From the IMG/VR virus record IMGVR_UViG_3300042301_002368, positions 1 through 41,104 of that record: 41,104 nucleotides of DNA; one strand, given 5' to 3'. The stretch comes from a virus. Positions within the stretch are counted from its first letter, which is position 1. Each line of letters begins with the position of its first letter. Positions 1 through 41,104 of the stretch are shown here, one piece after another. Both the position numbers and the translations under genes were made by a program. Under the pieces are notes generated by a model. That model was not told the DNA's origin and did not search any database. It worked only from the letters and a program-made list of their open reading frames with translations.

Positions 1-88
1 CCTTCTTATAGGTATCTGGAGATTCCAGTGAAGTCTTGATAGCAAGCGCCATCAACTCACTGGGTTTGAGTTTACGTAGGCGTGTCAT
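1..88 (-). CDS. dCMP deaminase, N-terminal fragment (runs off the left edge)
   Basis: Twenty-nine codons are visible, from an ATG at 88 to the window edge. The ATG overlaps the stop of the upstream gene as ATGA, so translation is probably coupled. The peptide is a basic start followed by a helix ending in SLESPDTYKK. In the deoxycytidylate deaminase family (for example T4 cd) such a helix is followed by a KVGAV-type strand, which would lie beyond the edge. The right edge of the window holds a minus-strand reading frame that begins with AFGYNSI and carries the zinc motifs of the same family. I infer that the two pieces are one gene, split where a circular map was opened. On its own this fragment would be only a short unidentified N-terminus. 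Confidence 0.6.
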   Translation of the reverse strand, partial: MTRLRKLKPSELMALAIKTSLESPDTYKK

Positions 89-954
89 TGTTTGTCGTGA
101 GCCAACTTCTTGAGAGCATCTACAAGGAACGAGGCCTTGCATTGATGATAGACGCCATCCTTGAGGAAGGCGAGGTGCTGCATGAGGTCTTCAGGACTTT
201 TGAAGTCGTTGACGTCAAGCCAGCCATACTCGAAACAAGCCTCAGTCTTGTTCTCCTTGTATTCTCGAAGAGCGTTCTGAGCCTGGACCCAGTTCTGCTC
301 GTAGAGATGTTGAGACCCAGCATTCAGGTAGATGTTGCCTAGGCTCAACTTGTTAGGATCATCTGCATATACTGCACGACCATCCTCGTCACGATATAGA
401 TGACGCATATACAGGAGCATATACGTAGTAATCATCGTGAAGTTAAAGATGTCATAGGGCCACCCAAGCCAAGCATCTGAAGAACGCATGGTGAGTATGC
501 AGTGAAGCTTACTGTTACGGATAAGCCACTGGACATTCAACGAGCAAGGAACGTCTTTAGAACGGATAGGACGCTCACGCCATATGTTGATCACCGCCTG
601 ACGAGTTCCGAAATCTCCAAGCAGGGTGATAGCAGCCCAATAGAACTGGTCCATGATCTTAGGACCGTAGGCACCCTGGAAAGTGAGTCGGTCGTCAGAG
701 AACAGGGAGATGGTCTTACTGTAAGGAGCTATGGTCTTGACTCTGTTGTCACCAGACAGAATCCAGTGAGCCTCAGCAGCCAGAAACTTGTAACCAAGCT
801 TGCGACTCAGAAGACTCAGGACAGGCTGGCGCATGTCAACACAGGTCTGACTAGCCAGGATTTCAAGCGTAGGCTTGTGACGGGGACTTACAGGTTGACC
901 CTCATCGAGAATACGCTGAACGAGTGCGACCCAGGATTTGTTAGCTGATTGCAT
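85..954 (-). CDS. thymidylate synthase-family protein, probable dCMP hydroxymethylase (289 aa)
   Basis: Belongs to the thymidylate synthase / dCMP hydroxymethylase superfamily, which transfers a one-carbon unit from methylene-tetrahydrofolate to C5 of a pyrimidine dNMP. The catalytic Cys137 lies in DVPCSLNVQWLIR, close to T4 gp42 MCTNTVQYLIR. Arg157-Ser-Ser-Asp160 and LGWPYDI follow, and His216/Tyr218 lie in AGSQHLY. From Cys to Arg is 20 residues and from Arg to the specificity residue 11, exactly as in E. coli ThyA (Cys146, Arg166, Asn177). That residue is Asp168 here, the substitution found in T4 dCMP hydroxymethylase (Asp179), which favours cytosine over uracil. A dCMP methylase, as in phage XP12, is the main alternative. 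Start ATG overlaps the preceding stop (TAATG). Genes around it encode a dNMP kinase, a MazG-like enzyme and a dCMP deaminase. Confidence 0.8.
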   Translation of the reverse strand: MQSANKSWVALVQRILDEGQPVSPRHKPTLEILASQTCVDMRQPVLSLLSRKLGYKFLAAEAHWILSGDNRVKTIAPYSKTISLFSDDRLTFQGAYGPKIMDQFYWAAITLLGDFGTRQAVINIWRERPIRSKDVPCSLNVQWLIRNSKLHCILTMRSSDAWLGWPYDIFNFTMITTYMLLYMRHLYRDEDGRAVYADDPNKLSLGNIYLNAGSQHLYEQNWVQAQNALREYKENKTEACFEYGWLDVNDFKSPEDLMQHLAFLKDGVYHQCKASFLVDALKKLAHDKQ

Positions 955-1508
955 TAGGCGAGAAGGTAGCTGATGAAGTGGTTGAGTTCGTTGCTGGTCT
1001 TGGCATGCTGGGTGAAGTCATACAAGACTACATCCTTGCGCTTCGACATAGCCAGATACAGGGACTTATATCTCTGATAAACTTGACGAAAGAAGCCGTC
1101 ATCGTAAGGATGATCTGGGTCCACGTTCGCGGCATGGAGTTCTAGGCATTTGTCAGTGAGACAGAAGACATACATGCCTCCAAGAGAGCGCACGATCTCG
1201 TCCATCTTCTTGCCGTAGCCTTCAGCGTAACCCTCTTCGTTGGTGAAGAAAGAGTCAATGCCACCAGAGTTGTTGTAGCAGAGGTGCGACGGCCAGTGAC
1301 GATCGACAACCACATTGTGGCCGAACTCAAGATTCTTCTTGATGTCCGCCAACATAGACTCGTGGAAGCGAGCGTATTGAACAATCGTGGCACTAGAGCC
1401 TAGATGTGTGCCATGGAAATACACAAAGCCGAGCTCCATGAGTTGCTCTGCCAGCGTGGTTTTGCCGGAACAATCTGGACCTTCGAGGATGATGAGTTTG
1501 CCAGACAT
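954..1508 (-). CDS. deoxynucleoside monophosphate kinase-like P-loop protein (184 aa)
   Basis: Residues 6-18 form a Walker A P-loop (IILEGPDCSGKTT), followed by a thymidylate-kinase-like region with a VVVDRHWPS motif, equivalent to the DR(x) motif of dNMP kinases. Family knowledge suggests phosphorylation of a dNMP to dNDP; beside a dCMP hydroxymethylase-like gene it could act on the modified nucleotide, as gp1 does in T4. The frame extends upstream to 1604, but the ATG at 1508 is preferred: it lies 10 bases after the stop of the preceding gene, and the translated extension is low-complexity and would overlap that gene. No Shine-Dalgarno sequence is visible. Substrate cannot be read from sequence; a general thymidylate kinase is possible. 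Confidence 0.75.
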   Translation of the reverse strand: MSGKLIILEGPDCSGKTTLAEQLMELGFVYFHGTHLGSSATIVQYARFHESMLADIKKNLEFGHNVVVDRHWPSHLCYNNSGGIDSFFTNEEGYAEGYGKKMDEIVRSLGGMYVFCLTDKCLELHAANVDPDHPYDDGFFRQVYQRYKSLYLAMSKRKDVVLYDFTQHAKTSNELNHFISYLLA

Positions 1509-1518
1509 AGGAGTGTAA

Positions 1519-2028
1519 TTAAACGAATTTGTGGAGTTGGGGCTTGACGTAGGTTTCGCCCTTGTGAACAGTGTAACCATGCTTGCCTTCGCCTTTCGGA
1601 ACAAGAGACTTGCTCATGTTGCTGTTGTGAACTTCTTCCCAGACTTTGTTGAAGTCAACACCCATCAGGTAGAGGGTTCCGACAGCAACATAAACGAGGT
1701 CAACCAGACCATCGACTTGTTCGATGATCTTGCCTTCCTTAGCAGCAGTCAGGTATTCTTCAAGCTCCTCCTTGAGAAACTTGGACCTGAAAGCCTGAAG
1801 GTCAGGCGGCAAGGTTCGAGCATTGTCCTTATAGGTCTGTGCAAACTTCGTGTGGAAGTCAACAATGTCCTGTGAGATGTTAGGGTGACTGCGCACACCT
1901 TTAAAGCCTTCTTCAAGGGCTTTAACTTGCAGCGCAAGCATCTTGATGTTGACACCCTCTGGACTCATACCCTGAGTCTGGTCGAGAAGTTTTAGAGCTT
2001 CCTCGTAAGCTGAACTTTGTTTAATCAT
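1519..2028 (-). CDS. MazG-like nucleotide pyrophosphohydrolase (169 aa)
   Basis: Residues 80-140 look like the all-alpha NTP pyrophosphohydrolase fold (MazG/HisE/dCTPase superfamily): an acidic helix KEELEEY at 86-92, a second helix QVDGLVDLVYVAVG with Asp106 and Asp110, then a W-x-x-V-H-x-S-N-M-S-K motif at 130-140 typical of phage MazG-like proteins. These enzymes cut NTPs to NMP and pyrophosphate using magnesium held by the acidic helices. The first 75 residues are helical and unassigned. In T4 the corresponding all-alpha enzyme gp56 destroys dCTP and supplies dCMP to the hydroxymethylase; the same role is inferred here because the hydroxymethylase-like gene is two genes downstream. Start overlaps the upstream stop by 8 bases. 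Confidence 0.7.
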   Translation of the reverse strand: MIKQSSAYEEALKLLDQTQGMSPEGVNIKMLALQVKALEEGFKGVRSHPNISQDIVDFHTKFAQTYKDNARTLPPDLQAFRSKFLKEELEEYLTAAKEGKIIEQVDGLVDLVYVAVGTLYLMGVDFNKVWEEVHNSNMSKSLVPKGEGKHGYTVHKGETYVKPQLHKFV

Positions 2029-2437
2029 TGTCGTATTCGTAACGATCGAGTTGGGATTCGGTTATCTGATCTTGGCGATGGTCTGCAATCTTATCCAGGA
2101 TTTTGTCGTGGTTCTTATCGCAGAAAATGTTGGCTGCCTTCAGCTTGGAAGATGCAAGAACCTTGGCTGCTTCGACCATAGGAGCGTCGCTAGGGATAGC
2201 AACGGTGCTAGGTTTATTGATCAGAGCATCCATCTTGCTGAGAATGGGATGCATCTTCTCATTGAAGTTGATGTCTCCAATGTGGTAGTCAGGCGAGTCT
2301 CCAGGGTCAGAGTCTTCTGGAAGACCACCCATGCGAGCAGGCGTCCCATAAGAATCAATGACGATCTCGATGTCCAGATAGAACACTTCGCCGTCGACTT
2401 CGACCTCTTCTTCAGTGAATTCGATTGAGTTGCTCAC
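2021..2437 (-). CDS. hypothetical acidic protein (138 aa)
   Basis: Not recognised. It is a soluble, acidic protein with a predicted beta-rich N-terminus (EFTEEEVEVDGEVFYLDIEI) and a helical C-terminal half from about residue 55. It begins with GTG, and the start overlaps the stop of the preceding nucleotidase gene as GTGA, so it is very likely translated by coupling within the nucleotide-metabolism operon. The 3' end overlaps the MazG-like gene by 8 bases. Being wedged between nucleotide-processing genes suggests a role in the same process, but nothing in the sequence shows it. Confidence 0.65.
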   Translation of the reverse strand: MSNSIEFTEEEVEVDGEVFYLDIEIVIDSYGTPARMGGLPEDSDPGDSPDYHIGDINFNEKMHPILSKMDALINKPSTVAIPSDAPMVEAAKVLASSKLKAANIFCDKNHDKILDKIADHRQDQITESQLDRYEYDND

Positions 2438-3063
2438 TTGGTAAGGAACACAGCCAGTTGATCACGAAGCATCTTGAACGTCAGGTCAAGATTTCCTGCC
2501 ATGTAGGCTCTGCTGTTCCACTTTTGCGGCCATAGGAAACATGCACCGCCATTGCGGTGGAAGGCCGAGATGTTTTCGTCACAGTCATCAATCAGGAAAG
2601 TGCTTCCATTGGCCATGAGGTGCTTGTGCTTGCCAAGCATCACGTTGCCCTTCTTGATGGGAGTGTGGCGGTAAAGCCACTCAACCTTCTGAGAGTGAGC
2701 AAGAGGGTGGAACCCTGGAGACGAGCTAATGACGATGTCAACAGGAATCTGAGCGTTGTCAGCCTCCCATGTCCGACCAACGTAGCTAAGACCCTGGAGC
2801 TCTTTAAAGAGAGGAGCAAGCCAAGGGTAGGGACGAAGGTTGAGCCAGAATGCTCTCTCCTCAGTGCATCGGTTGATCTCGTTCCACATCTCGCTTGCCG
2901 AGATGGTTCGATCAAGCAGGCTGCTGATGTTCTTCTCAATGGCGTATTCCCAGGGAGCAGGGATGGTGCACTGAGCAAGGTTAACGTTATACAAATCGCA
3001 GACTCCTTGATGGAAGTCAGCGAGAACTCCGTCCATGTCTAACAGTATGGTCTTGTGTTTCAT
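2434..3063 (-). CDS. HAD-family 5'(3')-deoxyribonucleotidase-like protein (209 aa)
   Basis: The N-terminus ILLDMDGVLADF is HAD motif I, with nucleophile Asp9 and acid/base Asp11. The exact DMDGVLADF wording is typical of the 5'-nucleotidase, deoxy (NT5C) family. Motif II is the serine-rich stretch DIVISSSPGF, a lysine follows in the KKGNVMLGKHK region, and motif IV is FLIDDCDEN. These enzymes remove phosphate from dNMPs; in the phage it may adjust dNMP pools or clear unmodified nucleotides. The ATG at 3063 is chosen because it places motif I at residue 9 and lies 8 bases after the previous stop; the longer frame to 3090 overlaps that gene. No Shine-Dalgarno sequence is visible. Confidence 0.75.
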   Translation of the reverse strand: MKHKTILLDMDGVLADFHQGVCDLYNVNLAQCTIPAPWEYAIEKNISSLLDRTISASEMWNEINRCTEERAFWLNLRPYPWLAPLFKELQGLSYVGRTWEADNAQIPVDIVISSSPGFHPLAHSQKVEWLYRHTPIKKGNVMLGKHKHLMANGSTFLIDDCDENISAFHRNGGACFLWPQKWNSRAYMAGNLDLTFKMLRDQLAVFLTK

Positions 3064-3071
3064 AGGCTGGA

Positions 3072-3569
3072 TTAAAGCATAAAGGTGCACTGATCAAGTT
3101 CCCAGACACCGTCTTCGACGTTGAACTTCACAAGCTTCTCTTCCTTCAATTTGAAGAGAATGCTACGCACGTATTCATCGTTTGCCGTGGAGTATTGGCG
3201 AAGGTGGCGTAGGGTAGTGGAGAGCGATTTAAACGAGAGAGGCTGGTTATAAAGCATGAACAGGATGCCTTCCCTGACGCCTTGCGCGAAGTCTTTCTGA
3301 GCGACTGAAGCGCCTTTTCGACGCTCCTCTAATTCAGAACGATCGAACTCGGCTATGTCACACAGGATTCGCTCAGACAGCTTCTTGTCTAGGACTTCCA
3401 TCTGTCTGGCATAGGTGCGCATGGCACACCTTGAAGCGTTGCGAATCTGTTCGTTGGGGGAGTGGATATCAAACTTGATACCCCACGGCATGATAGAGAG
3501 CTCGGTTTTCTGAGCCTTCGTGTTTTGGTTCTGTGTCTGGGGACGACCAGACTTCTGTTGTAGCAGCAT
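3072..3569 (-). CDS. hypothetical protein with a winged-helix-like C-terminus (165 aa)
   Basis: Not assigned to a family. The first 30 residues are Gln/Lys-rich and probably disordered. Residues 50-100 are strongly helical and charged. The last 70 residues (LSFKSLSTTLRHLRQYSTANDEYVR, then FKLKEEKLVKFNVEDGVWEL) resemble a winged helix: three helices followed by a two-stranded wing. A DNA-binding or regulatory role is therefore possible. Start choice is uncertain: the ATG at 3569 is used here, but the frame is open to a TTG at 3614 just after the ligase stop, which would add 15 residues. It sits between the ligase and the nucleotidase in one continuous minus-strand operon. Confidence 0.6.
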   Translation of the reverse strand: MLLQQKSGRPQTQNQNTKAQKTELSIMPWGIKFDIHSPNEQIRNASRCAMRTYARQMEVLDKKLSERILCDIAEFDRSELEERRKGASVAQKDFAQGVREGILFMLYNQPLSFKSLSTTLRHLRQYSTANDEYVRSILFKLKEEKLVKFNVEDGVWELDQCTFML

Positions 3570-3617: not shown

Positions 3618-4601
3618 TCAGTAAAGGGCATCAGGGGCGATTGGCGCAACATCGCAATCTCTAGCGTCTCGAAAGCCGAGAAAAACTGGGTGGCGAGGTG
3701 CGACCTTAATTCCGAAATTTTGGAACTTGTATTTAACGAGGCGTCCCACGAGAGATTCACGCTCAGACCAATAGGTCTGTCTTTGTAAATCAGTGAAACC
3801 TGAGCCGACGTTAAATTCGACCCCATCACTGCGGCGGACACGTAGTGCTCCAAGGATACCTGCTGGCACTTTGTTTGCAGCATGGTCTGACCGCTCCGAA
3901 AGACCAAGAGCGTTAGTGGTGCTCTCATTAAGATTTCGGAATAACTCTTCGTATCCAACACACACAGCTTCTTCATCGGTGAATCGCTTGAGTTTCAGAA
4001 GCCAAGCCTGCTTCTCGGTCGATCGACCGAACTTGTAAGGACCATCGAAGGAGCGAATCATGACTCCCTCGAACTTCATCTCTAGGCAAGCACGCTCATA
4101 AGAGAGCAGTTCAGTGACGTTCTTGATCACCACTGGATACAGTGGCTTGATGTGAGGGTGCTGATCGAGTTTCAGGTCAATCAGTTGCTGAACTCGCTCG
4201 AAGTGAGTCAGTCCAGGAGCAATGATGTCAAAGACATGAAAGACGAAGTTGGGCTGACCATCCTCTGACATGATTGCAGAGGAAGCATTCTGGAAGGTCT
4301 CGCCTACGATCAGTTCGCCATCGAGGTTGGGCAGACCCAAATCCCCAATGATCTGACGTATGAAGTTGTTGGGTATAGGCTTGAGGTTTCGCGAGAGAAC
4401 TTGGACCTTGTTAGGGTTCTTAGGGTCGATGAAGTCCTGGTCCAGTGTTACACACCGGATGCCGTCGATTTTAGGTGTGCAGAGAACAGGGAACTGTAGC
4501 GTCTCTGCATCTCGGCAGAGTGCCGCAAGCATGGGGCGAAAACCCTCATGCCGCTTAATCTTAGTCTCTTTCAAGACCTTGTCAAAGGAAGAAGAATCCA
4601 T
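3618..4601 (-). CDS. ATP-dependent DNA ligase (327 aa)
   Basis: Seals nicks in duplex DNA using ATP during phage replication. The adenylation motif KxDGxR is PKIDGIR with nucleophile Lys44. Motif III is NLDGELIVG, motif IIIa FVFHVFDI, motif IV EGVMIRSFDG and motif V LLKLKRF. The remaining C-terminal part (about 230-327) fits the OB-fold domain. Length is close to the T7 ligase class (about 360 aa). The ATG at 4601 is chosen because the longer frame to 4667 adds a serine-rich tail not seen in ligases; that tail region overlaps a small membrane ORF instead. It follows the promoter-proximal gene of the operon that starts at 5197. Confidence 0.93.
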   Translation of the reverse strand: MDSSSFDKVLKETKIKRHEGFRPMLAALCRDAETLQFPVLCTPKIDGIRCVTLDQDFIDPKNPNKVQVLSRNLKPIPNNFIRQIIGDLGLPNLDGELIVGETFQNASSAIMSEDGQPNFVFHVFDIIAPGLTHFERVQQLIDLKLDQHPHIKPLYPVVIKNVTELLSYERACLEMKFEGVMIRSFDGPYKFGRSTEKQAWLLKLKRFTDEEAVCVGYEELFRNLNESTTNALGLSERSDHAANKVPAGILGALRVRRSDGVEFNVGSGFTDLQRQTYWSERESLVGRLVKYKFQNFGIKVAPRHPVFLGFRDARDCDVAPIAPDALY

Positions 4602-4803
4602 ATGCGATGCAGGTGAAGAGGATGATTTCAAGAAGCCAGACGATTGCCCAGATAACAGAGTAGTCACGCCACTTAATCACGAACCACAGTGTCCATACTG
4701 GTATCAACGCGAGCGCAAGTAAAGAACGAATTAGCTTCAGCGCGCTGATCCGACGGCAACGGTATGTGGCTATAGTGTTTGTCGTGAGCAAGAAACGCCT
4801 CAT
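4582..4803 (-). CDS. possible small membrane protein overlapping its neighbours (73 aa)
   Basis: From the ATG at 4803 this frame encodes a short basic start followed by two hydrophobic stretches of about 20 residues each (roughly residues 23-41 and 47-72, ending IAYGFFFL), separated by KWRDYS. It overlaps the end of the upstream gene by about 130 bases and the ligase start by 20 bases, and fills the 71-base gap between them. Two clean membrane spans in an otherwise cytoplasmic operon are unlikely by chance, but the heavy overlap and lack of a ribosome site keep this tentative. It may use a later non-ATG start. No family recognised. Confidence 0.35.
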   Translation of the reverse strand: MRRFLLTTNTIATYRCRRISALKLIRSLLALALIPVWTLWFVIKWRDYSVIWAIVWLLEIILFTCIAYGFFFL

Positions 4804-6599: not shown

Positions 6600-7220
6600 T
6601 TAGGCGTTCAGCTTGGCCACGATCTCGGCCTTCTGCTCCTCAGAGAGCTCGCTCACGCGGTCAGACTTGAAGAACGCGAGGATGGTCTCGATCTTGACCT
6701 TCGAGGCAGAGAAGCCAAGGCCACCGCCGCCGGTAGCAGACTTCTTGTAGCCGAAGGTGCCTTCCGGATAAACCAGTTCGCCCTTCTCGTCGGTCTTCTT
6801 CTCCAGGAACTGCTTGCGAGCCTGGATTTTCTTGATCTCCTCGGAGTGCCAGTCTTCAGCGGAGGTGTCAGTGAGACGAGCCTCAGCCAGAGCCTCAGCA
6901 ATCTCACGGGTCGTGTGAACGAAGTTGCCGTCCTCGTCCTTCTCCTGAAGCATGCGGTCGATGACCTCGAAACGCTGCTTGCGCTCGCTCACGACTTCCT
7001 TGCTCTTCTCCTTGAGCTGGTCCTTCAGCGCCTTCAGCTGAGCCGAAGAGAGCTTGGTGAGGTCGATCACCGGAACCTGAGGCTTGGTGTCCTCAGCGGA
7101 ATCGGTAGCCTCAGCAGCAGGCGTCTCGTTGTTGGGTTCAGCGACAGCGACGTTGCTGGTCTCGTTGAGGTCAGAAGGAGCGGACTCCTTGTTCTTCTTG
7201 GTCTTGTTGGACTTAGCCAT
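6600..7220 (-). CDS. hypothetical protein, paralogue of the 8707-9219 gene (206 aa)
   Basis: An abundant-looking, lysine-rich protein with no recognised family. Residues 1-50 are a low-complexity Lys then Glu/Ala/Pro/Thr region. The rest aligns with the 170-aa product at 8707-9219: IDLTKLSSAQLKALKDQLKE against VDITKLDKAQLAALKAQLDQ, a shared KDE(A/D)G(N/A)F motif, and a shared (Y/H)xEGTFGYKxxAT segment. A Gly-rich stretch (ATGGGGLGF) follows, then a helical end ELSEEQKAEIVAKLN. The ATG at 7220 is chosen because it matches the paralogue and follows an A/C-rich, SD-free leader (ACCATACCATC) resembling the capsid gene leader. It is monocistronic, ending at a strong terminator. Confidence 0.75.
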   Translation of the reverse strand: MAKSNKTKKNKESAPSDLNETSNVAVAEPNNETPAAEATDSAEDTKPQVPVIDLTKLSSAQLKALKDQLKEKSKEVVSERKQRFEVIDRMLQEKDEDGNFVHTTREIAEALAEARLTDTSAEDWHSEEIKKIQARKQFLEKKTDEKGELVYPEGTFGYKKSATGGGGLGFSASKVKIETILAFFKSDRVSELSEEQKAEIVAKLNA

Positions 7221-7519
7221 GATGGTATGGTGGATTCGTTGTTGAGTCGGATTTGTTGAACTGAAGGTAGTCAACCTATCCTGGTCCATAGCGTTGACCC
7301 TCGACCGCGCCGGAGTCAACACCCAAAACGCACAAAATTGCACTGAATATCATAAAAGTTTTGGTCGTAGCATGGACCAGAGTGTGAAGTTTGAGCTATT
7401 ATTTTCCAGTGGTGTCTCTGTATGTGGAAGAGCGCCGTGTTCTGGGTCGTGTCTCATGGCTCGCCTGAACAAACGTGGAACACAACATCGTTATGAGTTG
7501 ACCTGTTCCAGAATTTTGT

Positions 7520-7555
7520 TTTAAACAGGTGAATTGTGATTTCGTTTAAACAGGT
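7520..7555. repeat. direct repeat TTTAAACAGGT, 25 bases apart
   Basis: Perfect 11-bp copies at 7520-7530 and 7545-7555, just over two helical turns apart, so on the same DNA face. A partial inverted copy (ACCTGTT) begins at 7501. Related (C)GTTTAAA words recur at about 7962, 8075 and 8241 in the same non-coding region, consistent with a protein-binding array. Confidence 0.5.
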
Positions 7556-7878
7556 TTTGAACGGTCGAAAATAGGGTCGTGGTGCGTGTAACGTGTAACA
7601 TTGAACGCGTAACTGGGACGTTTTGTCTCACTCCGAGTTCGTGAACGTGCCCTGAACGGAGGGGTTGAATGGTCTTGTGGGATGTAAAATGCTGAATTGA
7701 TTGGTCTTGAATGGATCATGTGCCATGTGACGGCGTAGGCGTTGGGCGAAGTTGGTTTTTGAAGACAATTTTTTGAAAATGTTACTCATTGCTTTTTTCC
7801 TTAGGCGGTGATTTATTCGTGATTTCTTTTAAAGCTTCGATTACCAACGACTTACGTATAAAGGGGTCAGGGGTCTAG

Positions 7879-7927
7879 TCATTTCTTTTATCTGTAAGAT
7901 TTCCAAGGGTTTGCGTCAAACCTTAGG
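7879..7927 (+). repeat. 49-bp inverted repeat, left copy
   Basis: Pairs with the reverse complement of 8121-8169. Both copies read T(C/G)ATTTCTTTTA, then GTAAGATTT, then a short hairpin (GGTTTG...AAACC) ending CCTT. They differ at about eight positions and by a two-base gap, yet the internal hairpin is kept in both, suggesting it is functional. Confidence 0.65.
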
Positions 7928-8120
7928 ATTACAGAACTGGTTAACTGGCAAGAAGTTGTGCGTTTAAAAATTTCACGTTCGGAAAAAGTCAATCACGCCA
8001 AACAGCGGATCGTGAGTGCCTCAAAAATTTCTGCAAAAATGACCCTTTTCGGTGATTTCCGAAATCGTTTAAAACTGTAAACCCTAGCGGCCCTTAGAAA
8101 TAAAAGAAATGAGCACCGAA

Positions 8121-8169
8121 CGAAGGTTTTTACCCAAACCTTTGCAAATCTTACCTTTAAAAGAAATCA
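8121..8169 (-). repeat. 49-bp inverted repeat, right copy
   Basis: Diverged inverted partner of 7879-7927, with the same order of elements on the minus strand: TTTCTTTTA, GTAAGATTT, and an AAGGTTT/AAACCTT hairpin. It overlaps the outer right motif of the 350-bp dyad. Confidence 0.65.
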
Positions 8170-8215
8170 CCGGAAATTACCCCCCTTAAGGGAAAATTCA
8201 ATCACCACGGAAGCT

Positions 8216-8254
8216 GTTGACAGTCAACGAGTTTTGAGGCGTTTAAAACTCGTT
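8216..8254. repeat. adjacent palindrome and 10-bp stem hairpin
   Basis: GTTGAC-a-GTCAAC at 8216-8228 is a perfect 6-bp dyad of operator type. It overlaps AACGAGTTTT (8226-8235), which pairs perfectly with AAAACTCGTT (8245-8254) across a 9-base loop. There is no T-run, so this is not a simple terminator. Confidence 0.6.
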
Positions 8255-8295
8255 CGTATCCAGTTTTTGGATACACGTATCCAGTTTTTGGATAC
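8255..8295. repeat. tandem pair of identical hairpins
   Basis: A 20-base unit occurs at 8255-8274 and again at 8276-8295 (period 21, about two helical turns). Each copy contains GTATCCA / TGGATAC, a 7-bp stem with a GTTTT loop. Identical tandem palindromes in phase suggest an operator or structured initiator-binding site. Confidence 0.75.
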
Positions 8296-8346
8296 GAAAA
8301 TTGTGTTCATGACGCAAATGTCCTGATTCCTAGGGTGCTCGCGTCA

Positions 8347-8370
8347 ACGAGGTGCGGTTTATTACCTCGT
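8347..8370. repeat. hairpin ACGAGGT / ACCTCGT
   Basis: A perfect 7-bp stem (8347-8353 with 8364-8370) around a 10-base loop in the non-coding region. No U-tract follows, so it is structural or regulatory if functional. Confidence 0.4.
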
Positions 8371-8465
8371 CCTTGTTCCCTCCCATTCACGGTTCGTATT
8401 CCAGGTTCAACCCACCTCGCGCCTTAGTCCCTAATGCCATGTTTCACGATCCATGGGACTCTCGA

Positions 8466-8489
8466 ACGCGCCGCCATAGGGCGGCGCGT
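8466..8489. repeat. GC-rich 10-bp perfect hairpin
   Basis: ACGCGCCGCC (8466-8475) pairs with GGCGGCGCGT (8480-8489) around an ATAG loop. It is very stable, but no T-run follows on either strand, so it may be a structural element rather than an intrinsic terminator. Confidence 0.55.
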
Positions 8490-8649
8490 GCTGTTAGGTC
8501 AGTTACTGGAATCAACCGCCCCAGTTTCAGCTGATTTTTGAGCCTAGGTCCAACCATGGACCGACCCGCAAAACCGCGTTAAAACCGTGTTTAAAGGCCA
8601 CAAAATCGTGCCTCGCGAGCCGGAAACCCTACTCCCCGACTCCAGGACA

Positions 8650-8686
8650 CGAGAAAGCCCCGGAACCCTATGGGTTGCCGGGGCTT
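8650..8686 (-). terminator. strong intrinsic terminator after the 170-aa gene
   Basis: On the minus strand AAGCCCCGG pairs with CCGGGGCTT, and inside it AACCC pairs with GGGTT around an ATA loop with a single bulge. It is followed by TTTCTCG. It lies about 20 bases after the stop at 8707. Confidence 0.85.
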
Positions 8687-8706
8687 GATGCCTGAGACTA
8701 GAAACC

Positions 8707-9219
8707 TTACTTCTTGGCTAGAGTCTTGACGATGTCGCCGAATTGACCCTTGAGGCTGGTGATGATGTGCCCGACATCCTCAGCGGTCAACGCGTTGACG
8801 TTCTCAGGGTTCGCGAACCAAGCCACGACGTTCTCAGGCTTGTATTGGCGCGGCTGCAATGCCGTAGCAGTAGCCTTGTAGCCGAACGTGCCTTCAGCAT
8901 GGACCAGGTTGCCGGTCTCATCGGTCTCCTTCTCCAGCTTCTGCTTGAATGCCTGTATCTTCTTCAGGACGGAATCGCGCTGCTTCTGGTCCGTAGTGGT
9001 GGTAGGGTCAAGCGACTCCAGACCGTCACGGAACAGCAGGGACCATATATCAGCCGTCGTGTTGCGGAACGCCCCAGCCTCATCCTTGTCCATAAGCATC
9101 TGCTTGACCGTGTCCGCCCACAACTTGCGGGAATCGCGCTTCTGCTTGGACAACTGATCGAGTTGCGCCTTGAGCGCAGCCAACTGAGCCTTGTCCAACT
9201 TGGTGATGTCAACGTTCAT
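8707..9219 (-). CDS. hypothetical protein, paralogue of the 6600-7220 gene (170 aa)
   Basis: No known family. It has three recognisable blocks shared with the 206-aa paralogue: an N-terminal helical block (VDITKLDKAQLAALKAQLDQ), a KDEAGAFRNTT block near residue 50, and IQAFKQKLEKETDETGN followed by the EGTFGYKAT segment near residue 115. It lacks the paralogue's low-complexity first 50 residues and Gly-rich stretch. The C-terminus is helical and lysine-terminated. It is the first minus-strand gene next to the late block, has its own candidate promoter (TTGACA at 9316-9321) and terminator, and is thus a single-gene early unit. A structural or DNA-associated role is only a guess. Confidence 0.75.
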   Translation of the reverse strand: MNVDITKLDKAQLAALKAQLDQLSKQKRDSRKLWADTVKQMLMDKDEAGAFRNTTADIWSLLFRDGLESLDPTTTTDQKQRDSVLKKIQAFKQKLEKETDETGNLVHAEGTFGYKATATALQPRQYKPENVVAWFANPENVNALTAEDVGHIITSLKGQFGDIVKTLAKK

Positions 9220-16946: not shown

Positions 16947-19453
16947 TGCCTGAAGGATTCCCAATTCAGACAAACTTCACCGCTGGTGAAGTTTCACCTT
17001 ACCTGAGAGGTCGCACAGACTTCAAGGGTTATTTCAATGGTGTTGAAACACTCAAGAATTTTGTTGTGCTTCCGCAAGGAGGCGCGATGCGTCGTTCTGG
17101 GACTCGCTTCATAGCTGAAGTCAAAGATTCGACTAAAGCTGTAATTCTTAAGCGTTTTGAGTTTTCTGCAAACGATGCCTTCATTTTGGAGTTTGGTGAG
17201 GGATACATTCGCTTTTTCAAAAACGCTGCTCCTGTTTTGTCGGGTGGAGCCCCTTACGAGATAGCTACTCCCTACACTGAGGCAAATCTCAAAGAGATGA
17301 AGTTTGCTCAGTCGGCTGACGTCTTGTATATTGCCCATAAGAGTCATCAGCCTCGAAAGCTTAGTCGTTTGGCTGACACTAACTGGACGCTTCAAACTCT
17401 TAACACAAAAGATGGTCCGTATCTTGACACCGATACGTCAGACACGACCATGTATTTGCAGAACATCACCGATCGTGCTACCGTCACAAGCACAAATAAT
17501 GATTTTGTCGTTGGCGATGTGGGCAAGTTTGTTGAGTTCGTTTATGAAGGCTACTTGATTCTTGGCGAAATCAAAGCCTACGTCGACGCAAAAACGGTTA
17601 CTGTAGAGCCAAAAGAGAATGTTATCTCGAATGATAGCATTGACGGGACTGCTGTGATCACCTACGCTGCGGCAAGCGGAGGTCTTCCAAACAGACTTCG
17701 TGCAACGGTGTCTATCTGGAGTGTCAAAACTCAGTATTCTTACATTAAGGTTGATACTACTTGGTATTACCTTGGTGAAAACATTGCAGCCTCTGAAGAA
17801 ATTGGAGAAGTTGCTGGTCCTCCGAAGCGACCCGCTTACACAGTAGACATTATTGCGGTTTCTTCGCAACCCACAATGGTTGCCACTACTGGTAAGCTTA
17901 CCTTTTCCAACAGGTTGACCACCGCAACTCTTAAAGCTTCTCAAAACACTTTCTCTAACGCAAGAGACACAGGACGTCTTATTCGTTTAAGCCTGAAGAA
18001 CAACCAGGTTGCAGCTAAAATAACTGCTTACACCTCAGCTACTGAGGTAAGTGTTACTCTTGAGGGTGCTGTTCCTAAGGACGTCAACGACCCAAGCAAA
18101 TATGTATCAAATGCAGAAACGCTGAATTGGAAATTCGGCGCGTGGTATGTCAACAACTGGCCATACGCCGTTTTGTTTCACGAAGGTCGACTGGTGTTCC
18201 TTGGGACTGACCTACAACCTCAGACTCTTTGGATGAGCAAGTCTCAGGATTTTGAGAATTTTGCTCCAACTGAGTCGGACTCTGGTGTTGTTGATGACAA
18301 CGCGATTACTCAGACGCTCAATTCTGGAAAAATCAACAAACTGATTTGGGGCGTCACTGGTCCTGTGCTTCTTCTTGGAACTTTTGGTTCTGAGTGGCAA
18401 GTCAAAGCTGATTCTATTAACGAGGCTTTGAGTCCTACCAACTTCAATGCCAAAGAGCAGACCGCCTGGGGTTCTGAAGACATTGCTCCAGAACGAATTG
18501 GTGTAAGCGTTTTGTATGTCCAGAGAAGTGGCACTGTTGTTCGAGAGCTCGTATATTCCTACGAAATCGACTCGCACGTGTCTAACTCACTGAATCTTGT
18601 CAGTGAGCACATTTTGCGTGAATCTCTGGGAGCCACCGACATCGCTTATCAGAAAGCCCCCTATAGTCGCGTTTGGATTGCCACCAATTCTGGAAGACTG
18701 GTCTGTCTTACCTTTGAGAAAGAGCAAGAGATTGTTGCCTGGAGCAAACACGAAATTGGAGGTTCATTCGCAGGCGGCATTGCTTCTGTAGAATCAGTCG
18801 AATGTGTCCCAGACAGTTCTGCGGACAAACTCTATCTCGTAGCTAAGAGAACTATCAACGGCGCAACCAAACGCTACGTTGAAATGATGGAGAACGACTT
18901 CTGGCCTACCAGCAATCAAGACAAGAACAATATGTTCTATCTTGACTCCTACAAGGCTTACGATTTCGGAGCAGGTCCGTATTCGACTACAATCACTGGC
19001 CTTGCACACTTAGAAGGTCAAACCGTTAAAATTCTTGTTAACGGTTCTCGTCGTCCTGATGCTGTAGTCAATGCAGGTCAGATTACAATTAACGGCACTT
19101 CTGGTCAATACGTTCGTGTTGGTTTGAAGTATCAATCTCTTCTAAAGCCAATGCCGATCGAGGCAGGAAGCTTGAACGGAACTGCGCAAGGAAAGACAAA
19201 ACGAATTCACAAACTTGTGTTCAGGCTTGTCAATTCTCTTGGTATGAAGTTTGGCGTTACAGAAGCTTCTGCTCGTGACGTATCTTTTCGAGAGACTTCT
19301 GGTCCTATGGATCAGTCACCGGATTTATTTACAGGTGACAAGGAAATTACGCTTGACTCGGGATACGATCTTACGGCACAGTATGTCGTAATTCAAGAGG
19401 AACCTTATCCTCTTCTTATTGCGGCAATTATGCCTCAATTGTCCACCAGCTAA
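16946..19453 (+). CDS. tail tubular protein B / tail nozzle, T7 gp12-like (835 aa)
   Basis: Forms the tail nozzle below the gp11-like adaptor. The N-terminus QTNFTAGEVSPYLRGRTDFKGYFNGVETLKNFVVLPQGG is the hallmark of this family (FtaGElSp.l.gR.D...Y..G...l.N..v...Gg...R.GT.f), followed by RRSGTRFIAEV. The rest is beta-rich, with a segment HEGRLVFLGTDLQPQTLWMSKSQDFENF typical of the mid-domain. Length agrees with relatives. Start and stop both overlap adjacent genes as TAATG, so A, B and the acetyltransferase are translationally coupled. Confidence 0.93.
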   Translation: MPEGFPIQTNFTAGEVSPYLRGRTDFKGYFNGVETLKNFVVLPQGGAMRRSGTRFIAEVKDSTKAVILKRFEFSANDAFILEFGEGYIRFFKNAAPVLSGGAPYEIATPYTEANLKEMKFAQSADVLYIAHKSHQPRKLSRLADTNWTLQTLNTKDGPYLDTDTSDTTMYLQNITDRATVTSTNNDFVVGDVGKFVEFVYEGYLILGEIKAYVDAKTVTVEPKENVISNDSIDGTAVITYAAASGGLPNRLRATVSIWSVKTQYSYIKVDTTWYYLGENIAASEEIGEVAGPPKRPAYTVDIIAVSSQPTMVATTGKLTFSNRLTTATLKASQNTFSNARDTGRLIRLSLKNNQVAAKITAYTSATEVSVTLEGAVPKDVNDPSKYVSNAETLNWKFGAWYVNNWPYAVLFHEGRLVFLGTDLQPQTLWMSKSQDFENFAPTESDSGVVDDNAITQTLNSGKINKLIWGVTGPVLLLGTFGSEWQVKADSINEALSPTNFNAKEQTAWGSEDIAPERIGVSVLYVQRSGTVVRELVYSYEIDSHVSNSLNLVSEHILRESLGATDIAYQKAPYSRVWIATNSGRLVCLTFEKEQEIVAWSKHEIGGSFAGGIASVESVECVPDSSADKLYLVAKRTINGATKRYVEMMENDFWPTSNQDKNNMFYLDSYKAYDFGAGPYSTTITGLAHLEGQTVKILVNGSRRPDAVVNAGQITINGTSGQYVRVGLKYQSLLKPMPIEAGSLNGTAQGKTKRIHKLVFRLVNSLGMKFGVTEASARDVSFRETSGPMDQSPDLFTGDKEITLDSGYDLTAQYVVIQEEPYPLLIAAIMPQLSTS

Positions 19454-19896
19454 TGATTCTCGGAGTTCAATCTTCCGATTTAGATTCTCTTGAACTGAAT
19501 CTAGGAAAATCTTTCTTTGAAGAGAAAGGTCTTCCTGGTTCGTTTAATCGTGACGTCTTCGTATCTACGTGGAAGAAACTTATCGAAGCTAATGTAGGTG
19601 CTCTTTGGGTTATTAAAGATGAGGGAAAAGTTGTTGGCGCTTTAGGAGGAACGATTTACCCAGACCCTAATGACGGAGAGTTGGTTGCTCAAGAAGCTTT
19701 TTGGTATGTTGACCACGAAAGACGTCACGGTGTTGAGCCCATTAGACTTTTTCTGAACTTTGAAGCTTGGGCAAAGACTATTGGAGCCAAGCGATTGATC
19801 ATGGTTGCTCTAATCAACTCTGATGTTCGTATTGGAAAACTCTACGAGGCTCGCGGTTACAAGGCTGTTGAAACCATTTATCTGAAAAACGTATGA
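19453..19896 (+). CDS. GNAT-family acetyltransferase-like protein (147 aa)
   Basis: Shows the GNAT layout: strand LWVIKDEGKVVGALGGTIYP, a central strand AQEAFWYVDHERRHG that ends in an RRHGVEP motif at the acetyl-CoA pyrophosphate site, a following helix PIRLFLNFEAWAKTIGA, and the last strand region LYEARGYKAVETIYLKNV. Such proteins are regularly encoded between tail tubular protein B and the internal virion proteins in short-tailed phages, but their substrate is not known. It might modify a virion protein or host target. Overlaps its neighbours by 1 and 4 bases. Confidence 0.75.
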   Translation: MILGVQSSDLDSLELNLGKSFFEEKGLPGSFNRDVFVSTWKKLIEANVGALWVIKDEGKVVGALGGTIYPDPNDGELVAQEAFWYVDHERRHGVEPIRLFLNFEAWAKTIGAKRLIMVALINSDVRIGKLYEARGYKAVETIYLKNV

Positions 19897-31678: not shown

Positions 31679-32107
31679 ATGGACGCGAATCTCATCATGG
31701 CAAGCTTTCTTAATCTTCTTAAAAAGCTGCCTCCAACCTTCATCGTTGCAGACAGGACTTACGCTCCAGTCAAAAAGAAGTATCTTCTTGAGAACTTCTA
31801 CGACTGGTATCGGAAGTTTATGTTTAGTCAAGATGTGATCAAGTGGGATTCGCGTTTCGATTGTGATGACTTCGCTGCGCTGTATCGATCGCTTATCCAA
31901 CTGGCTCACTTTCAAGCCAAAGGTAACAACGATGAAGGTGTGGCAGTCGGCGAAGTTTTCTTCTGGCAAGAAGGTAATCCGGACAAGGGTCATGCTATCA
32001 ACTGTGGTATGACTGAAGAAGGCCTGATTTTCTTTGAGCCTCAAACCGGAAAGCAACTGCACCTATCAAATGAAGAACTTGCTTCGATATTCTTTGTTCG
32101 CTTTTAG
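31679..32107 (+). CDS. cysteine-peptidase-like protein, candidate endolysin (142 aa)
   Basis: Contains the Cys-His pattern of transglutaminase/NlpC-type cysteine peptidases: Cys62 in RFDCDDFAALYRS, His105 in DKGHAINCG, and an acidic residue in FFEPQTGK (Glu120). The surrounding segments (GVAVGEVFFW, EGLIFFEPQ) read as the central strands of such folds. It lies between a holin-like gene and a lipoprotein/holin pair, and no lysozyme, amidase or transglycosylase is visible anywhere else in the window, so it is the best candidate for the cell-wall-degrading enzyme. This is an inference; the catalytic type has not been verified. The ATG lies one base after the previous stop. Confidence 0.55.
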   Translation: MDANLIMASFLNLLKKLPPTFIVADRTYAPVKKKYLLENFYDWYRKFMFSQDVIKWDSRFDCDDFAALYRSLIQLAHFQAKGNNDEGVAVGEVFFWQEGNPDKGHAINCGMTEEGLIFFEPQTGKQLHLSNEELASIFFVRF

Positions 32108-38438: not shown

Positions 38439-38811
38439 GTCGGTCTTGATTTAGGTTAGCGTCAACAGCGTTCATGCTGATGACTTTTCCTGGGTGTTCA
38501 CGTATGTCTATCAGTTTATTGGGATACGGGAAATAGTATATACGAACTGATGAAGTCTCAGCTTCGTGGCGAGCCAGTAGGATTACGCGTCCGCCGTGTC
38601 GGTGTTCACGATGAGCGAACACATATTGCTCTGGTCTCACTTTGATGAAATGGTTTCCCTCAATTACCTTGAGTTCTAACCAATAGGAATGATTGTTGTA
38701 GGTGTAGTGAACATCTGGGGTTCCGCGGCCAATAGCGTTCTCAACCCTGACCGCGTTCCCCTGAAGCTTGGTCTTGAGCAAATTCCAGAACTTTGATTCC
38801 GGTCCTGTCAT
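38428..38811 (-). CDS. VRR-NUC / PD-(D/E)xK nuclease (127 aa)
   Basis: A small stand-alone nuclease of the VRR-NUC family. Glu5 in GPESKFWNLLK is the conserved N-terminal acid. RGTPDVHYTY gives Pro32-Asp33, and SYWLELKV gives Glu46-x-Lys48, the PD-(D/E)xK core; VRPEQYVFAHREHRHGGRVILLAR is the following helix and strand. Such enzymes act on branched DNA, taking a role like T7 endonuclease I. The ATG at 38811 (rather than the TTG two codons earlier) overlaps the polymerase stop as ATGA, and an AGGAGG sequence lies about 10 bases upstream, one of few good Shine-Dalgarno sites here. Confidence 0.85.
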   Translation of the reverse strand: MTGPESKFWNLLKTKLQGNAVRVENAIGRGTPDVHYTYNNHSYWLELKVIEGNHFIKVRPEQYVFAHREHRHGGRVILLARHEAETSSVRIYYFPYPNKLIDIREHPGKVISMNAVDANLNQDRHEQ

Positions 38812-40775
38812 TTCCAAGTTCCTCCTAGCTCCATCTCTGCAAGCATGGGAGTCGAAATGTCAACACAAGACTCCATGCACAACCGAATCTGCTCTGCTAC
38901 GTGCTCATCTGGAACAGAGTAGTTGAGTTCGTCATGCACCTGCATGTGCGGCACTAGACCCAATTCCTTCCAGACCTTCAGCATAGCCGCTTTAGTCATG
39001 TCAGCAGCAGACCCTTGAATCAAGGCGTTAAGAGCCTTGTAAGCGTAGGCTCTCTTTAGAGGTAGCCCAGGGTATTTTTTCTTGGCAACCTCATAAACGT
39101 AAGGAGTAGTGTCCTTACCCTGTTGACGCATCATGTAGGAGTCAGCAGGCTCATAGAGATTGAAATGACGGTGACGACCCAGTAGAGTCTTGATGTAGCC
39201 TCTGTTCTGAGCAGTCTTCATCACTGCATCTGACAGTTCCTTGATGTAAGGATTAGCTGTGTCGAAGGTGTGTGCAATGCGCTTGGCTTCCTCAATGTCG
39301 ACGCCTAGGTCATTGGCAATCTTAGCGATACCTTCACCATAGCACCGACCCAGGGTCAGGTCTTTAGCAGGCTTACGCTTCAGCTTGGCTTCATCAGCTA
39401 CCAACTGGTAGTAGTCAGCCTTGCGATTCACGAGCCACGCTTCACGAGCCTTGTCCGCACCGCGGTAGCCAGACTTGAAGGCGTAGTGAACCATGATGCG
39501 AGGCTCCTGCTGAGAGTAGTCATACTTGCCCCAGCGCATACCTTTATCGGGAATGAAAAAGCCTCGAATAATCGGAGCCATGTCAGGGTCACGAGAAGGA
39601 ACTTGCTGAAGGTTAGGACGAGTGCAGGAAAACCGAGAGCTACGAGCGCCTTCGCGTTCACCGTCTTCATCGTCCCTGGGCATCTGGTTGAAGGTAGCGT
39701 GAATGCGACCGTTAACTGAATATTCCAAGATGAGCTTGTCACAGAAGTCAGACTTGAGCTTACGCATACGCCTGATCTTTGCAACTTTGAGAGCAGTGGG
39801 ATGCTTACAGTGCTTGAAGAACAGTTTGTCGTAAGAATTGCGTCCTGTTTTGGTGGTCCCTACTTCGAGGTTTTGATTCTCAAAGATGCGGTCTAGATGT
39901 TCGCCGGAGTTAACATTGACCCAGAAGCCAAACTCCCTGAACATCTCATACTCCAGACGCTTGATGTCTTCATCCCACATCTTACTGCATTTCTCAGCCT
40001 TCTCCACATCGACACGGACGCCAAGAAATCTCATCTCCAGGACCAGCTTGCTCAACTCTGTCTCCATCTCGAAGATGTTCCAGAGACCTTGAGCCTTCAG
40101 CAAAGACTTCTGCTTTTCTAGAACAAGGATGGAGTTCTCAGGGTCAATCTCAGCGTAGGGACCAACATACTTAGGAGGGAGTTTCCATAGGTCTATCTTC
40201 GAGTCACAGCCATAAGTCTTGGCTGCGAGTTCGAGTAGTTCTTCGTTCTTACCCTTGCCCAAGTATTTGCGACTCAGCGTTTCGAGACCAAAGCTGTCAG
40301 CCTCTTCATCGAGAAGAGCTTCCGCAATCTGGGTATCCTGCCACGCTCCCCCAAGCCTGATACCGAGTGCACGTAGCCACTCTGCATCATAGAGGATATT
40401 TGACCCAACCTTATCTTCTGAGGATTCCAGTTGACTTTTTGCGTAGTCAAGAACTGTTTGACGATCAAGATTCCCTCCGCCTTGGTGAGCAATAGGATAG
40501 TAGGCTTTCCAGCCTCGATCGATAATTTCAACGCTTCCAGTTGAAACCTTGCCGGAGGGTGGGACACATAATGCAATGCCCACTGGATAGCCGTCTTTTC
40601 GGAATGTTCCAGGTCCATGTGTTCTTAGTTTAGGGTCTCTGGTTTCCAAGTCGACTCCAATGGACTTGCTCCCACGCAAGTCGGGAAACGAGGTGGGAGC
40701 AGTCCAACTGGATTCAGGCTCAAAGAGAACCAAATTCAGACCATCTTGAGGGTTACTGAACTTTTTCTTCGCCAT
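38808..40775 (-). CDS. DNA polymerase I family (T7-like) with 3'-5' exonuclease (655 aa)
   Basis: The replicative polymerase. The exonuclease domain has IGVDLETRDP (Asp42, Glu44), NILYDAEW (Asp130) and YAEIDPEN (Tyr207, Asp211). The polymerase domain has motif A YDYSQQEPRI (Asp419), motif B RKPAKDLTLGRCYGEG, and motif C QVHDELN (Asp615). In motif B the spacing R467-K471-L475-Y479 equals E. coli Arg754, Lys758, Phe762, Tyr766, so the residue at the 762 position is Leu instead of Phe or Tyr. Variation at this site is used in viral ecology and affects nucleotide discrimination. No 5' nuclease domain is present, as usual for phage PolA. The start overlaps the deaminase stop by 23 bases. Confidence 0.95.
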   Translation of the reverse strand: MAKKKFSNPQDGLNLVLFEPESSWTAPTSFPDLRGSKSIGVDLETRDPKLRTHGPGTFRKDGYPVGIALCVPPSGKVSTGSVEIIDRGWKAYYPIAHQGGGNLDRQTVLDYAKSQLESSEDKVGSNILYDAEWLRALGIRLGGAWQDTQIAEALLDEEADSFGLETLSRKYLGKGKNEELLELAAKTYGCDSKIDLWKLPPKYVGPYAEIDPENSILVLEKQKSLLKAQGLWNIFEMETELSKLVLEMRFLGVRVDVEKAEKCSKMWDEDIKRLEYEMFREFGFWVNVNSGEHLDRIFENQNLEVGTTKTGRNSYDKLFFKHCKHPTALKVAKIRRMRKLKSDFCDKLILEYSVNGRIHATFNQMPRDDEDGEREGARSSRFSCTRPNLQQVPSRDPDMAPIIRGFFIPDKGMRWGKYDYSQQEPRIMVHYAFKSGYRGADKAREAWLVNRKADYYQLVADEAKLKRKPAKDLTLGRCYGEGIAKIANDLGVDIEEAKRIAHTFDTANPYIKELSDAVMKTAQNRGYIKTLLGRHRHFNLYEPADSYMMRQQGKDTTPYVYEVAKKKYPGLPLKRAYAYKALNALIQGSAADMTKAAMLKVWKELGLVPHMQVHDELNYSVPDEHVAEQIRLCMESCVDISTPMLAEMELGGTWK

Positions 40776-41104
40776 TTGAAGGAACGAGGTCGTCGATTAC
40801 AAGTTTGAATACGTCGATGCCATAGAAGCGAGCGACGGCGAAGGCAGGCTTATCTTTTTCGTAAGCCTCGCCATATACCACTCTCTTAACCCCATGGACC
40901 GCAAGATTTTTCATGCAGTCAACACAGGGGAAGAGACTGGTATATACCTCATTGATCTGGCCCTTAGTCACCAATGAGCACATCATGGATTCAGCATGAA
41001 CCATGAATGGGCGTCGGACGTCTCGATTGTTCATGAACTCATCGAGGTCTTTGTAGCCCATCTTTTCAGGCTTGGCGTCAAGGATAGAGTTGTAGCCGAA
41101 AGCA
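40753..41104 (-). CDS. dCMP deaminase, central and C-terminal part (runs in from the right edge)
   Basis: Converts dCMP to dUMP. The frame is open to the window edge: AFGYNSI, then MVHAESMMCSL with the zinc-ligand His and catalytic Glu (HAE), FPCVDCMKNL with the two zinc-binding Cys, and VVYGEAYEKDKPAFAVARFYGIDVF, which aligns with T4 cd (LVYCETYDKNKPGWDDILRNAGIEVF). The N-terminal helix is missing, and its probable counterpart is the 29-codon fragment at the left edge. Joining them needs a gap of roughly 30-40 bases (n = 1 modulo 3) to keep frame and typical spacing. It lies upstream of, and overlaps, the polymerase gene. Confidence 0.88.
   Translation of the reverse strand, partial: AFGYNSILDAKPEKMGYKDLDEFMNNRDVRRPFMVHAESMMCSLVTKGQINEVYTSLFPCVDCMKNLAVHGVKRVVYGEAYEKDKPAFAVARFYGIDVFKLVIDDLVPSNGEEKVQ

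Follow-up and report, generated by a model that had tools for sequence, protein, structure and literature searches.

A predicted dCMP 5-hydroxymethylase in a conserved nucleotide-metabolism operon of an environmental podophage

Genome and operon organization

The DNA analysed here (the window, 41,104 bases) begins and ends inside one and the same gene, which codes for a dCMP deaminase. Contig L001, a separate assembly of the same phage that is 99.98% identical to the window, spans the end junction and supplies the 37 bases missing between positions 41104 and 1; the genome of the window is therefore essentially complete, and circular or circularly permuted. The plus strand carries genes for terminase, portal, capsid, a tail protein, internal virion proteins and a tail spike, a structural set that identifies the virus as a podophage; genes for replication and nucleotide metabolism occupy the minus strand. 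The phage is known from metagenomes only. The nearest portal protein found belongs to podovirus MW202510 (45%), followed by those of HTVC010P-type Pelagibacter podophages (~35%).

The gene under study, a homologue of thymidylate synthase (TS), is an ORF that begins with ATG and runs from 954 to 85 on the minus strand (the preliminary description had given no strand). It belongs to a tight operon with a fixed order, found across ~100 phage contigs: MazG-like NTP pyrophosphatase, thymidylate-kinase-like kinase, TS-like enzyme, dCMP deaminase and DNA polymerase (Table 1). The stop codon of the kinase gene overlaps the TS-like start by one base and the deaminase start codon overlaps the TS-like stop (ATGA), so that the three genes are coupled. 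The complete deaminase protein matches the PHROG dCMP deaminase family at 5.2e-20. The model of the kinase (pLDDT 89) shows a thymidylate-kinase fold, and its top fold matches are thymidylate kinases.

Table 1. Coordinates of the operon genes and of the diagnostic codons of the TS-like gene in the window.
Feature	Position	Strand	Basis
dCMP deaminase, N-terminal part	1..88	-	complete gene L001:8066-8542
TS-family gene, predicted dCMP 5-hydroxymethylase, 289 aa	85..954	-	PF00303; PHROG thymidylate synthase; MilA best by sequence profile and fold
Asp168 codon (GAC), pyrimidine-specificity site (EcTS Asn177, T4 gp42 Asp179)	451..453	-	alignment and HHalign
Ser158 codon (MilA Ala176), deoxyribose-type	481..483	-	alignment; PMC5175136
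Arg157 codon (EcTS Arg166)	484..486	-	alignment
Ser138 codon (EcTS His147; Thr in T4 gp42 and nearly all relatives)	541..543	-	alignment
Catalytic Cys137 codon (EcTS Cys146)	544..546	-	alignment; invariant in 61 sequences
Asp134 codon (EcTS Leu143, T4 gp42 Asp145), hydroxymethylase signature, putative water activation	553..555	-	alignment; PMC6400193
Arg118 codon (MilA Lys133), deoxyribose-type	601..603	-	alignment; PMC5175136
Thymidylate-kinase-like P-loop kinase, 184 aa, proposed 5hm-dCMP kinase	954..1508	-	PHROG thymidylate kinase 1.1e-12; fold search
MazG-like NTP pyrophosphohydrolase (PRA-PH), DR2231-like, proposed dCTP/dUTP pyrophosphatase	1519..2028	-	PF01503 2.6e-17; DR2231 profile 5.9e-15
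NT5C-type 5'(3')-deoxyribonucleotidase, same operon	2434..3090	-	PF06941 4.6e-12
ATP-dependent DNA ligase, same gene cluster	3618..4667	-	PF14743 7.6e-16; PF01068 6.9e-9
Family A DNA polymerase, after the deaminase, order as in relatives	38808..40775	-	PHROG DNA polymerase 4.3e-107
dCMP deaminase, C-terminal part, HAE and PCxxC zinc motifs	40753..41104	-	PF00383 8.1e-6; alignment

Among 100 relatives examined by BLAST, neighbours within 7 kb, always on the same strand and in constant order, included the kinase in 83, the MazG-like gene in 72, the DNA polymerase in 70 and the deaminase in 61 (75 by clustering), all of these counts being lower bounds since many contigs end early. The MazG-like and kinase genes, candidate members of a cytosine-replacement gene set, are adjacent and conserved, and their substrate assignments are predictions. 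The closest solved relative of the MazG-like protein is DR2231, mainly a dUTP hydrolase. We also considered whether this protein is a homologue of the T4 gp56 dCTPase and rejected the idea, as there is no detectable sequence kinship. Both points weigh against the hydroxymethylation reading set out below.

Elsewhere in the genome, a GNAT-type acetyltransferase gene (19453-19896, plus strand; PF00583, 8.2e-5) sits amid the tail and internal virion protein genes, and a small protein (31679-32107, plus strand) matches the Agglutinin C-terminal (lectin-associated) domain PF18021 at 6.4e-6, barely over the cut-off. The otherwise dense genome has a gene-poor stretch of ~1.36 kb (7344-8706), possibly an origin or control region, which holds the 20-base repeat CGTATCCAGTTTTTGGATAC in tandem at 8255-8295 together with several inverted repeats. 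On either side of it lies one member of a paralogous pair of unknown function (6600-7343 and 8707-9219, both minus strand; 40% identity over 159 aa). An Rfam scan gave no match.

Active-site residues of the TS-like enzyme

Residues 7-178 of the TS-like protein match Pfam Thymidylat_synt (PF00303) with E=8.8e-17 and 61.6 bits against a cut-off of 24.3. We used a 32-sequence alignment to map its residues on the numbering of E. coli TS (EcTS), taking the EcTS and T4 gp42 proteins as translations of the respective sequence records. C146, R166 and N177 of EcTS correspond to C137, R157 and D168 of the window enzyme, and their T4 gp42 counterparts are C148, R168 and D179; HHalign of the family profile likewise sets Asp168 opposite EcTS Asn177 and T4 gp42 Asp179. 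The spacing from Cys to the specificity residue (31) and from Arg to it (11) is equal in the three enzymes. These results bear out the preliminary description, which had placed Asp168 at the Asn177 position with these same distances, had named Asp179 of T4 gp42 at this place and had likened its VQWLIR context to T4 gp42, which reads VQYLIR. A chance, sequencing or assembly error at Asp168 was ruled out, given that contig L001 encodes an identical TS-like protein and that the residue is invariant in relatives.

The catalytic set of the TS superfamily is conserved: Cys, Glu58, Tyr94, Arg166, Asp169, His207 and Tyr209 of EcTS appear as C137, E61, Y96, R157, D160, H216 and Y218, invariant among 61 sequences. 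By contrast, the features of bona fide TS (Asn177, His147, Leu143 and Trp80/Trp83) are replaced by D168, S138, D134 and I82/F85, the TS C-terminal tail is absent, the enzyme ending in ...KKLAHDKQ with a different helical end, and the protein scores 43.8 bits in TIGR03284, a test for bona fide TS with a cut-off of 108. At the positions equivalent to 177, 143, 165 and 147 the window enzyme is of the T4 gp42 type (Asp, Asp, Met and non-His), where TS has N, L, Q and H; phage enzymes of the dUMP-hydroxymethylase type have N177/N147. The protein is a member of the TS superfamily that lacks the defining features both of TS proper and of the ribonucleotide enzyme described below.

Relation to MilA and T4 gp42

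Profile searches returned MilA, the CMP 5-hydroxymethylase of mildiomycin synthesis (PDB 5b6d/5b6e/5jp9/5jnh), as the top solved relative (E 1.5e-35; best TS 7.9e-22). Structure prediction, which the preliminary description had named as a check of the active site, led to the same place: the AlphaFold2 model (mean pLDDT 95.7) is nearest to MilA in Foldseek (2.1e-19 vs 8.3e-15 for TS, with probability 1.00 to both), seven MilA chains preceding every TS. MilA is also a TS superfamily hydroxymethylase that acts on a cytosine nucleotide and carries Asp186 at the specificity site, but it is part of an antibiotic cluster, whereas the window gene lies in a phage operon. It also differs in its preference for CMP, which rests on Lys133 and Ala176, and reversal of these to Arg/Ser makes dCMP the preferred substrate (PMC5175136). 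The window enzyme has this deoxy-type pair, Arg118 and Ser158, and dCMP rather than CMP is therefore the expected substrate; ribonucleotide specificity by analogy with MilA was ruled out from these two residues.

The enzyme shares with T4 gp42 (PDB 1b5e) the counterparts of Asp179, Asp145, Cys148 and Tyr96, a Met preceding the Arg-Ser pair, the lack of a TS tail and a setting in a phage nucleotide pathway with kinase and pyrophosphatase. In contrast, the T4 protein is strongly diverged in sequence (HHalign E 1.6e-12, weaker than the family match to EcTS; BLASTP E 4e-5), has Ser94 where the window enzyme has Gly, and occupies a long branch of its own in the tree. Orthology with T4 gp42 was ruled out by the tree and by the profile scores, in which MilA is closer. 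No glucosyltransferase was recognised in the window. In its presumed mode of action the enzyme resembles T4 dCMP hydroxymethylase (dCH) and MilA.

Conservation and spread of the family

Scans of viral contigs found 346 contig stretches encoding TS-like relatives, of which we used the best 80, together with further loci and named phages. Asp occupies the 177 position in all 101 close-family loci, the window's own phage included. Of the 101, 100 match the motif MRSSDx[WY]LG, which excludes the specificity Asp, and all carry it; 47 of those 100 fail the profile search motif that contains Asp, yet have Asp. Position 147 is Thr in the close family, Ser in a few members and never the His of TS. Asn177 was found in the SPO1-like, YuA-like, Rhodoferax-phage and Montesquieu homologues, always paired with Asn147; EcTS pairs it with His147.

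The same enzyme is carried by the cultured Pelagibacter phages HTVC119P and HTVC200P, by podovirus MW202510 and by hundreds of metavirome contigs. MW202510 (Manatee Spring, 41.7 kb) is short-tailed and has an orthologous enzyme and a shared replication cassette. HTVC119P and HTVC200P are also short-tailed, of ~40 kb, with orthologous enzymes, but they are T7-like (Autographiviridae), and near their enzyme the kinase is present and no MazG-like gene or deaminase was detected. Such a spread of relatives among environmental phages speaks against the earlier view that an enzyme of this kind is uncommon in a short-tailed phage of about 41 kb.

In the tree, the T4-type dCH stands on a long separate branch, and the deep branches are long and weakly resolved. 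Asp at the specificity site needs three changes, two of them forced by supported branches; with the deep branches poorly resolved, example origins are the T4 type, the window family and, among the TS-side sequences, Elanor. The homologue of Xanthomonas phage Elanor (L029:3884-4753) combines Asp177 with a TS-like Trp80 and Pro147, has a DHFR gene nearby and groups with EcTS. Here dCMP specificity seems to have arisen independently, and the Elanor protein is possibly a dCMP methylase.

Links to modified cytosine in related phages

The kind of enzyme is already known, and published work (PMC8670742) has also connected TS homologues bearing Asp177 with cytosine modification in environmental phages. 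In that study (MetaGPA, eLife 2021), environmental phage DNA was selected for modified cytosine, and the top two TS-homologue residues associated with selection were at positions 177 (Asp) and 147; in the modified contigs PF00303 co-occurs with PF01503 and PF00383. The window has the same residue switch, a change at 147, and the same co-occurrence of PF01503, PF00383 and a DNA ligase. The MetaGPA contigs differ in having been selected experimentally for modified cytosine and in that some carry a carbamoyltransferase; the window phage is without one and is known from sequence alone.

A second comparison is offered by Stenotrophomonas phage AXL3, whose gp27-gp31 (as in Pseudoxanthomonas phage PW916) keep the order pyrophosphohydrolase, kinase, TS-like enzyme and dCMP deaminase, with an Asp177 enzyme that in AXL3 is 40% identical to ours. 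AXL3 DNA resisted 35 of 37 restriction enzymes, and the two that cut both have AT-only sites (PMC7504290). AXL3, however, is a siphophage; its genome measures 47.5 kb and also encodes a methyltransferase and ThyX, and its kinase is longer (327 aa). Two points limit the comparison: its digestion does not distinguish modified C from modified G, and its methyltransferase is missing in the window. For modified cytosine in the window phage, AXL3 and the MetaGPA contigs thus give support of an indirect kind. In the AXL3 paper gp28 is interpreted as a dTMP synthase (PMC7504290), a reading against which its residues argue. Additionally, AXL3 (PMC7504290) and PW916 both encode ThyX, so that dTMP can be made without the TS-like enzyme. 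We searched the literature and found no podophage of this kind with a measured base composition, and none in which 5hmC had been measured.

Hydroxymethylation as the favoured reaction

The preliminary description had proposed dCMP specificity through Asp168, with 5-hydroxymethyl- or 5-methylcytosine in the DNA. A cytosine-specific TS homologue is strongly supported by the residues described above; as to the two products, the active site and the lack of a DHFR gene point to hydroxymethylation rather than methylation, and modified cytosine in the phage DNA would follow from incorporation of the product. Gene identity, residues, fold and operon conservation are direct results of the analysis. From the families and the literature we infer, with a probability of about 0.8, a dCMP 5-hydroxymethylase whose product would reach the phage DNA as 5hm-dCTP, an estimate that covers substrate, product and incorporation.

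In the ternary-complex study of the T4 enzyme (PMC6400193), the signature of hydroxymethylation comprises an Asp three residues before Cys, at the site of TS Leu143, for water activation, and a Ser two residues before Tyr96, in an enzyme without the TS tail; D145N abolishes activity and S94A retains ~25% of it. The window enzyme has Asp134 three residues before Cys137, in agreement with the Asp/Glu signature of dCMP hydroxymethylases. The site of T4 Ser94, where the signature calls for Ser (or Thr), is Gly94 here and Gly in all 61 aligned family sequences, as it also is in the YuA-type phage enzyme. This Gly counts against the reading; the enzyme carries most, though not all, of the published dCH signatures.

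Cofactor supply was also considered. Searches of the nearly closed window genome for DHFR, ThyX and a second TS found none, and a hydroxymethylase returns THF, so that DHFR is not required.

Further modification of the product has to be weighed against an unmodified 5hmC. Where a relative has a neighbouring kinase gene, the kinase ends, in over half of the cases, in a C-terminal domain resembling the UDG superfamily (e.g. L062:4888-5895, L041:6949-7980), a weak match to PF03167 (E 3e-4 and 0.03 in the two tested); the window kinase (954-1508) stands alone. In 66 of 100 relatives a SAM-dependent methyltransferase gene (PF13489) lies directly upstream of the MazG-like gene, e.g. L087:5405-6253, and at this place the window has the 5'-nucleotidase and an unknown gene.

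These fused kinases and extra methyltransferases, and the 5hmdU-DNA kinases that act on thymidine-modified phage DNA (PMC7653180), speak for a scheme in which 5hmC is a first step only and cytosine is hypermodified by unrecognised enzymes of the cassette, for example by the kinase acting on 5hmC in DNA. We consider this unlikely for the window phage: its kinase models as a thymidylate kinase and has no UDG-like domain, the relatives' methyltransferase, DUF932 and UDG-domain genes are absent from the window by tblastn, a search of the window for a carbamoyltransferase found none, and among the window ORFs scanned against Pfam there was no 5hmC-decorating enzyme of known type or other known modifier. 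The broader proposal is that podophages and siphophages that are small and abundant use the conserved cassette (pyrophosphatase, kinase with or without the fused UDG-like domain that is frequent in it, dCMP hydroxymethylase, deaminase and, in many cases, methyltransferase) to produce a new hypermodified cytosine, its kinase or fused domain acting on 5hmC in DNA and not on the free nucleotide. This is a speculative proposal to which we give somewhat less credence still.

Methylation would replace hydroxymethylation if the enzyme resembled the Xp12-type dCMP methylase of Xanthomonas phages, which is likewise of the TS family and acts on dCMP but methylates it by hydride transfer from THF, giving 5-methyl-dCMP and a phage with 5mC. 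A change of N to D is by itself enough to give TS the activity of a dCMP methylase (PMC8670742, citing Liu and Santi 1992 and Hardy and Nalivaika 1992), so that Asp alone cannot separate the two activities. We find methylation improbable nonetheless, because Asp134 stands in for TS Leu143, Ile82/Phe85 for Trp80/Trp83, the TS tail is missing and the genome has no DHFR. The Elanor homologue, our methylase-like contrast and stand-in for the Xp12 type, groups instead with EcTS; it retains Trp80, position 143 is Asn, and a DHFR gene lies close by.

Finally, although the gene adjoins a thymidylate-kinase-like gene and the gene of a dUMP-producing enzyme, dCMP deaminase, and although databases and authors call such genes thymidylate synthase, an ordinary or dUMP-specific homologue making dTMP or 5hm-dUMP, with Asp168 incidental, is very improbable: Asp is fixed family-wide along with Ser/Thr147 and Met165, D179N lowers the kcat of the T4 enzyme ~3600-fold (PMC6400193), AXL3 and PW916 have ThyX besides, homologues of the dUMP-hydroxymethylase type retain Asn177 with Asn147, and the nearest solved structure is MilA and not a TS.

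Proposed pathway and implications

In the pathway that we propose for a dCMP hydroxymethylase, the MazG-like enzyme would hydrolyse dCTP to dCMP, lowering dCTP/dUTP. Cys137 would attack C6 of dCMP, with Asp168 recognising the cytosine ring and protonating N3; methylene-THF would donate one carbon to C5, and Asp134 would activate the water that adds to the exocyclic methylene, yielding 5hm-dCMP and THF. The kinase would turn 5hm-dCMP into 5hm-dCDP, host NDP kinase would complete 5hm-dCTP, and the phage polymerase would insert it in place of dCTP, while the dCMP deaminase would provide dUMP for the host TS to make dTMP. Thus modified, the cytosine would probably shield the phage DNA, the likely benefit being protection against the restriction enzymes of the host and against other nucleases.

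Beyond the published work, the present analysis contributes the almost complete genome of a podophage that carries the cassette, the finding that Asp is fixed throughout a large family, the kinship with MilA, the conserved operon and the presence of the enzyme in cultured T7-like Pelagibacter phages, podophages that have both enzyme and kinase. HTVC119P, HTVC200P and AXL3 are available as isolates, so that the question can be tested now. If the proposal is true, cytosine replacement would extend beyond large phages of the T4 kind; four or five genes in a compact cassette would suffice in genomes of ~40 kb, and such cassettes would be common in environmental phages. It would also bear on whether assays that need unmodified DNA under-count such phages, and on which host defences shape them, be it restriction, modification-dependent nucleases or DNA-glycosylase defences.
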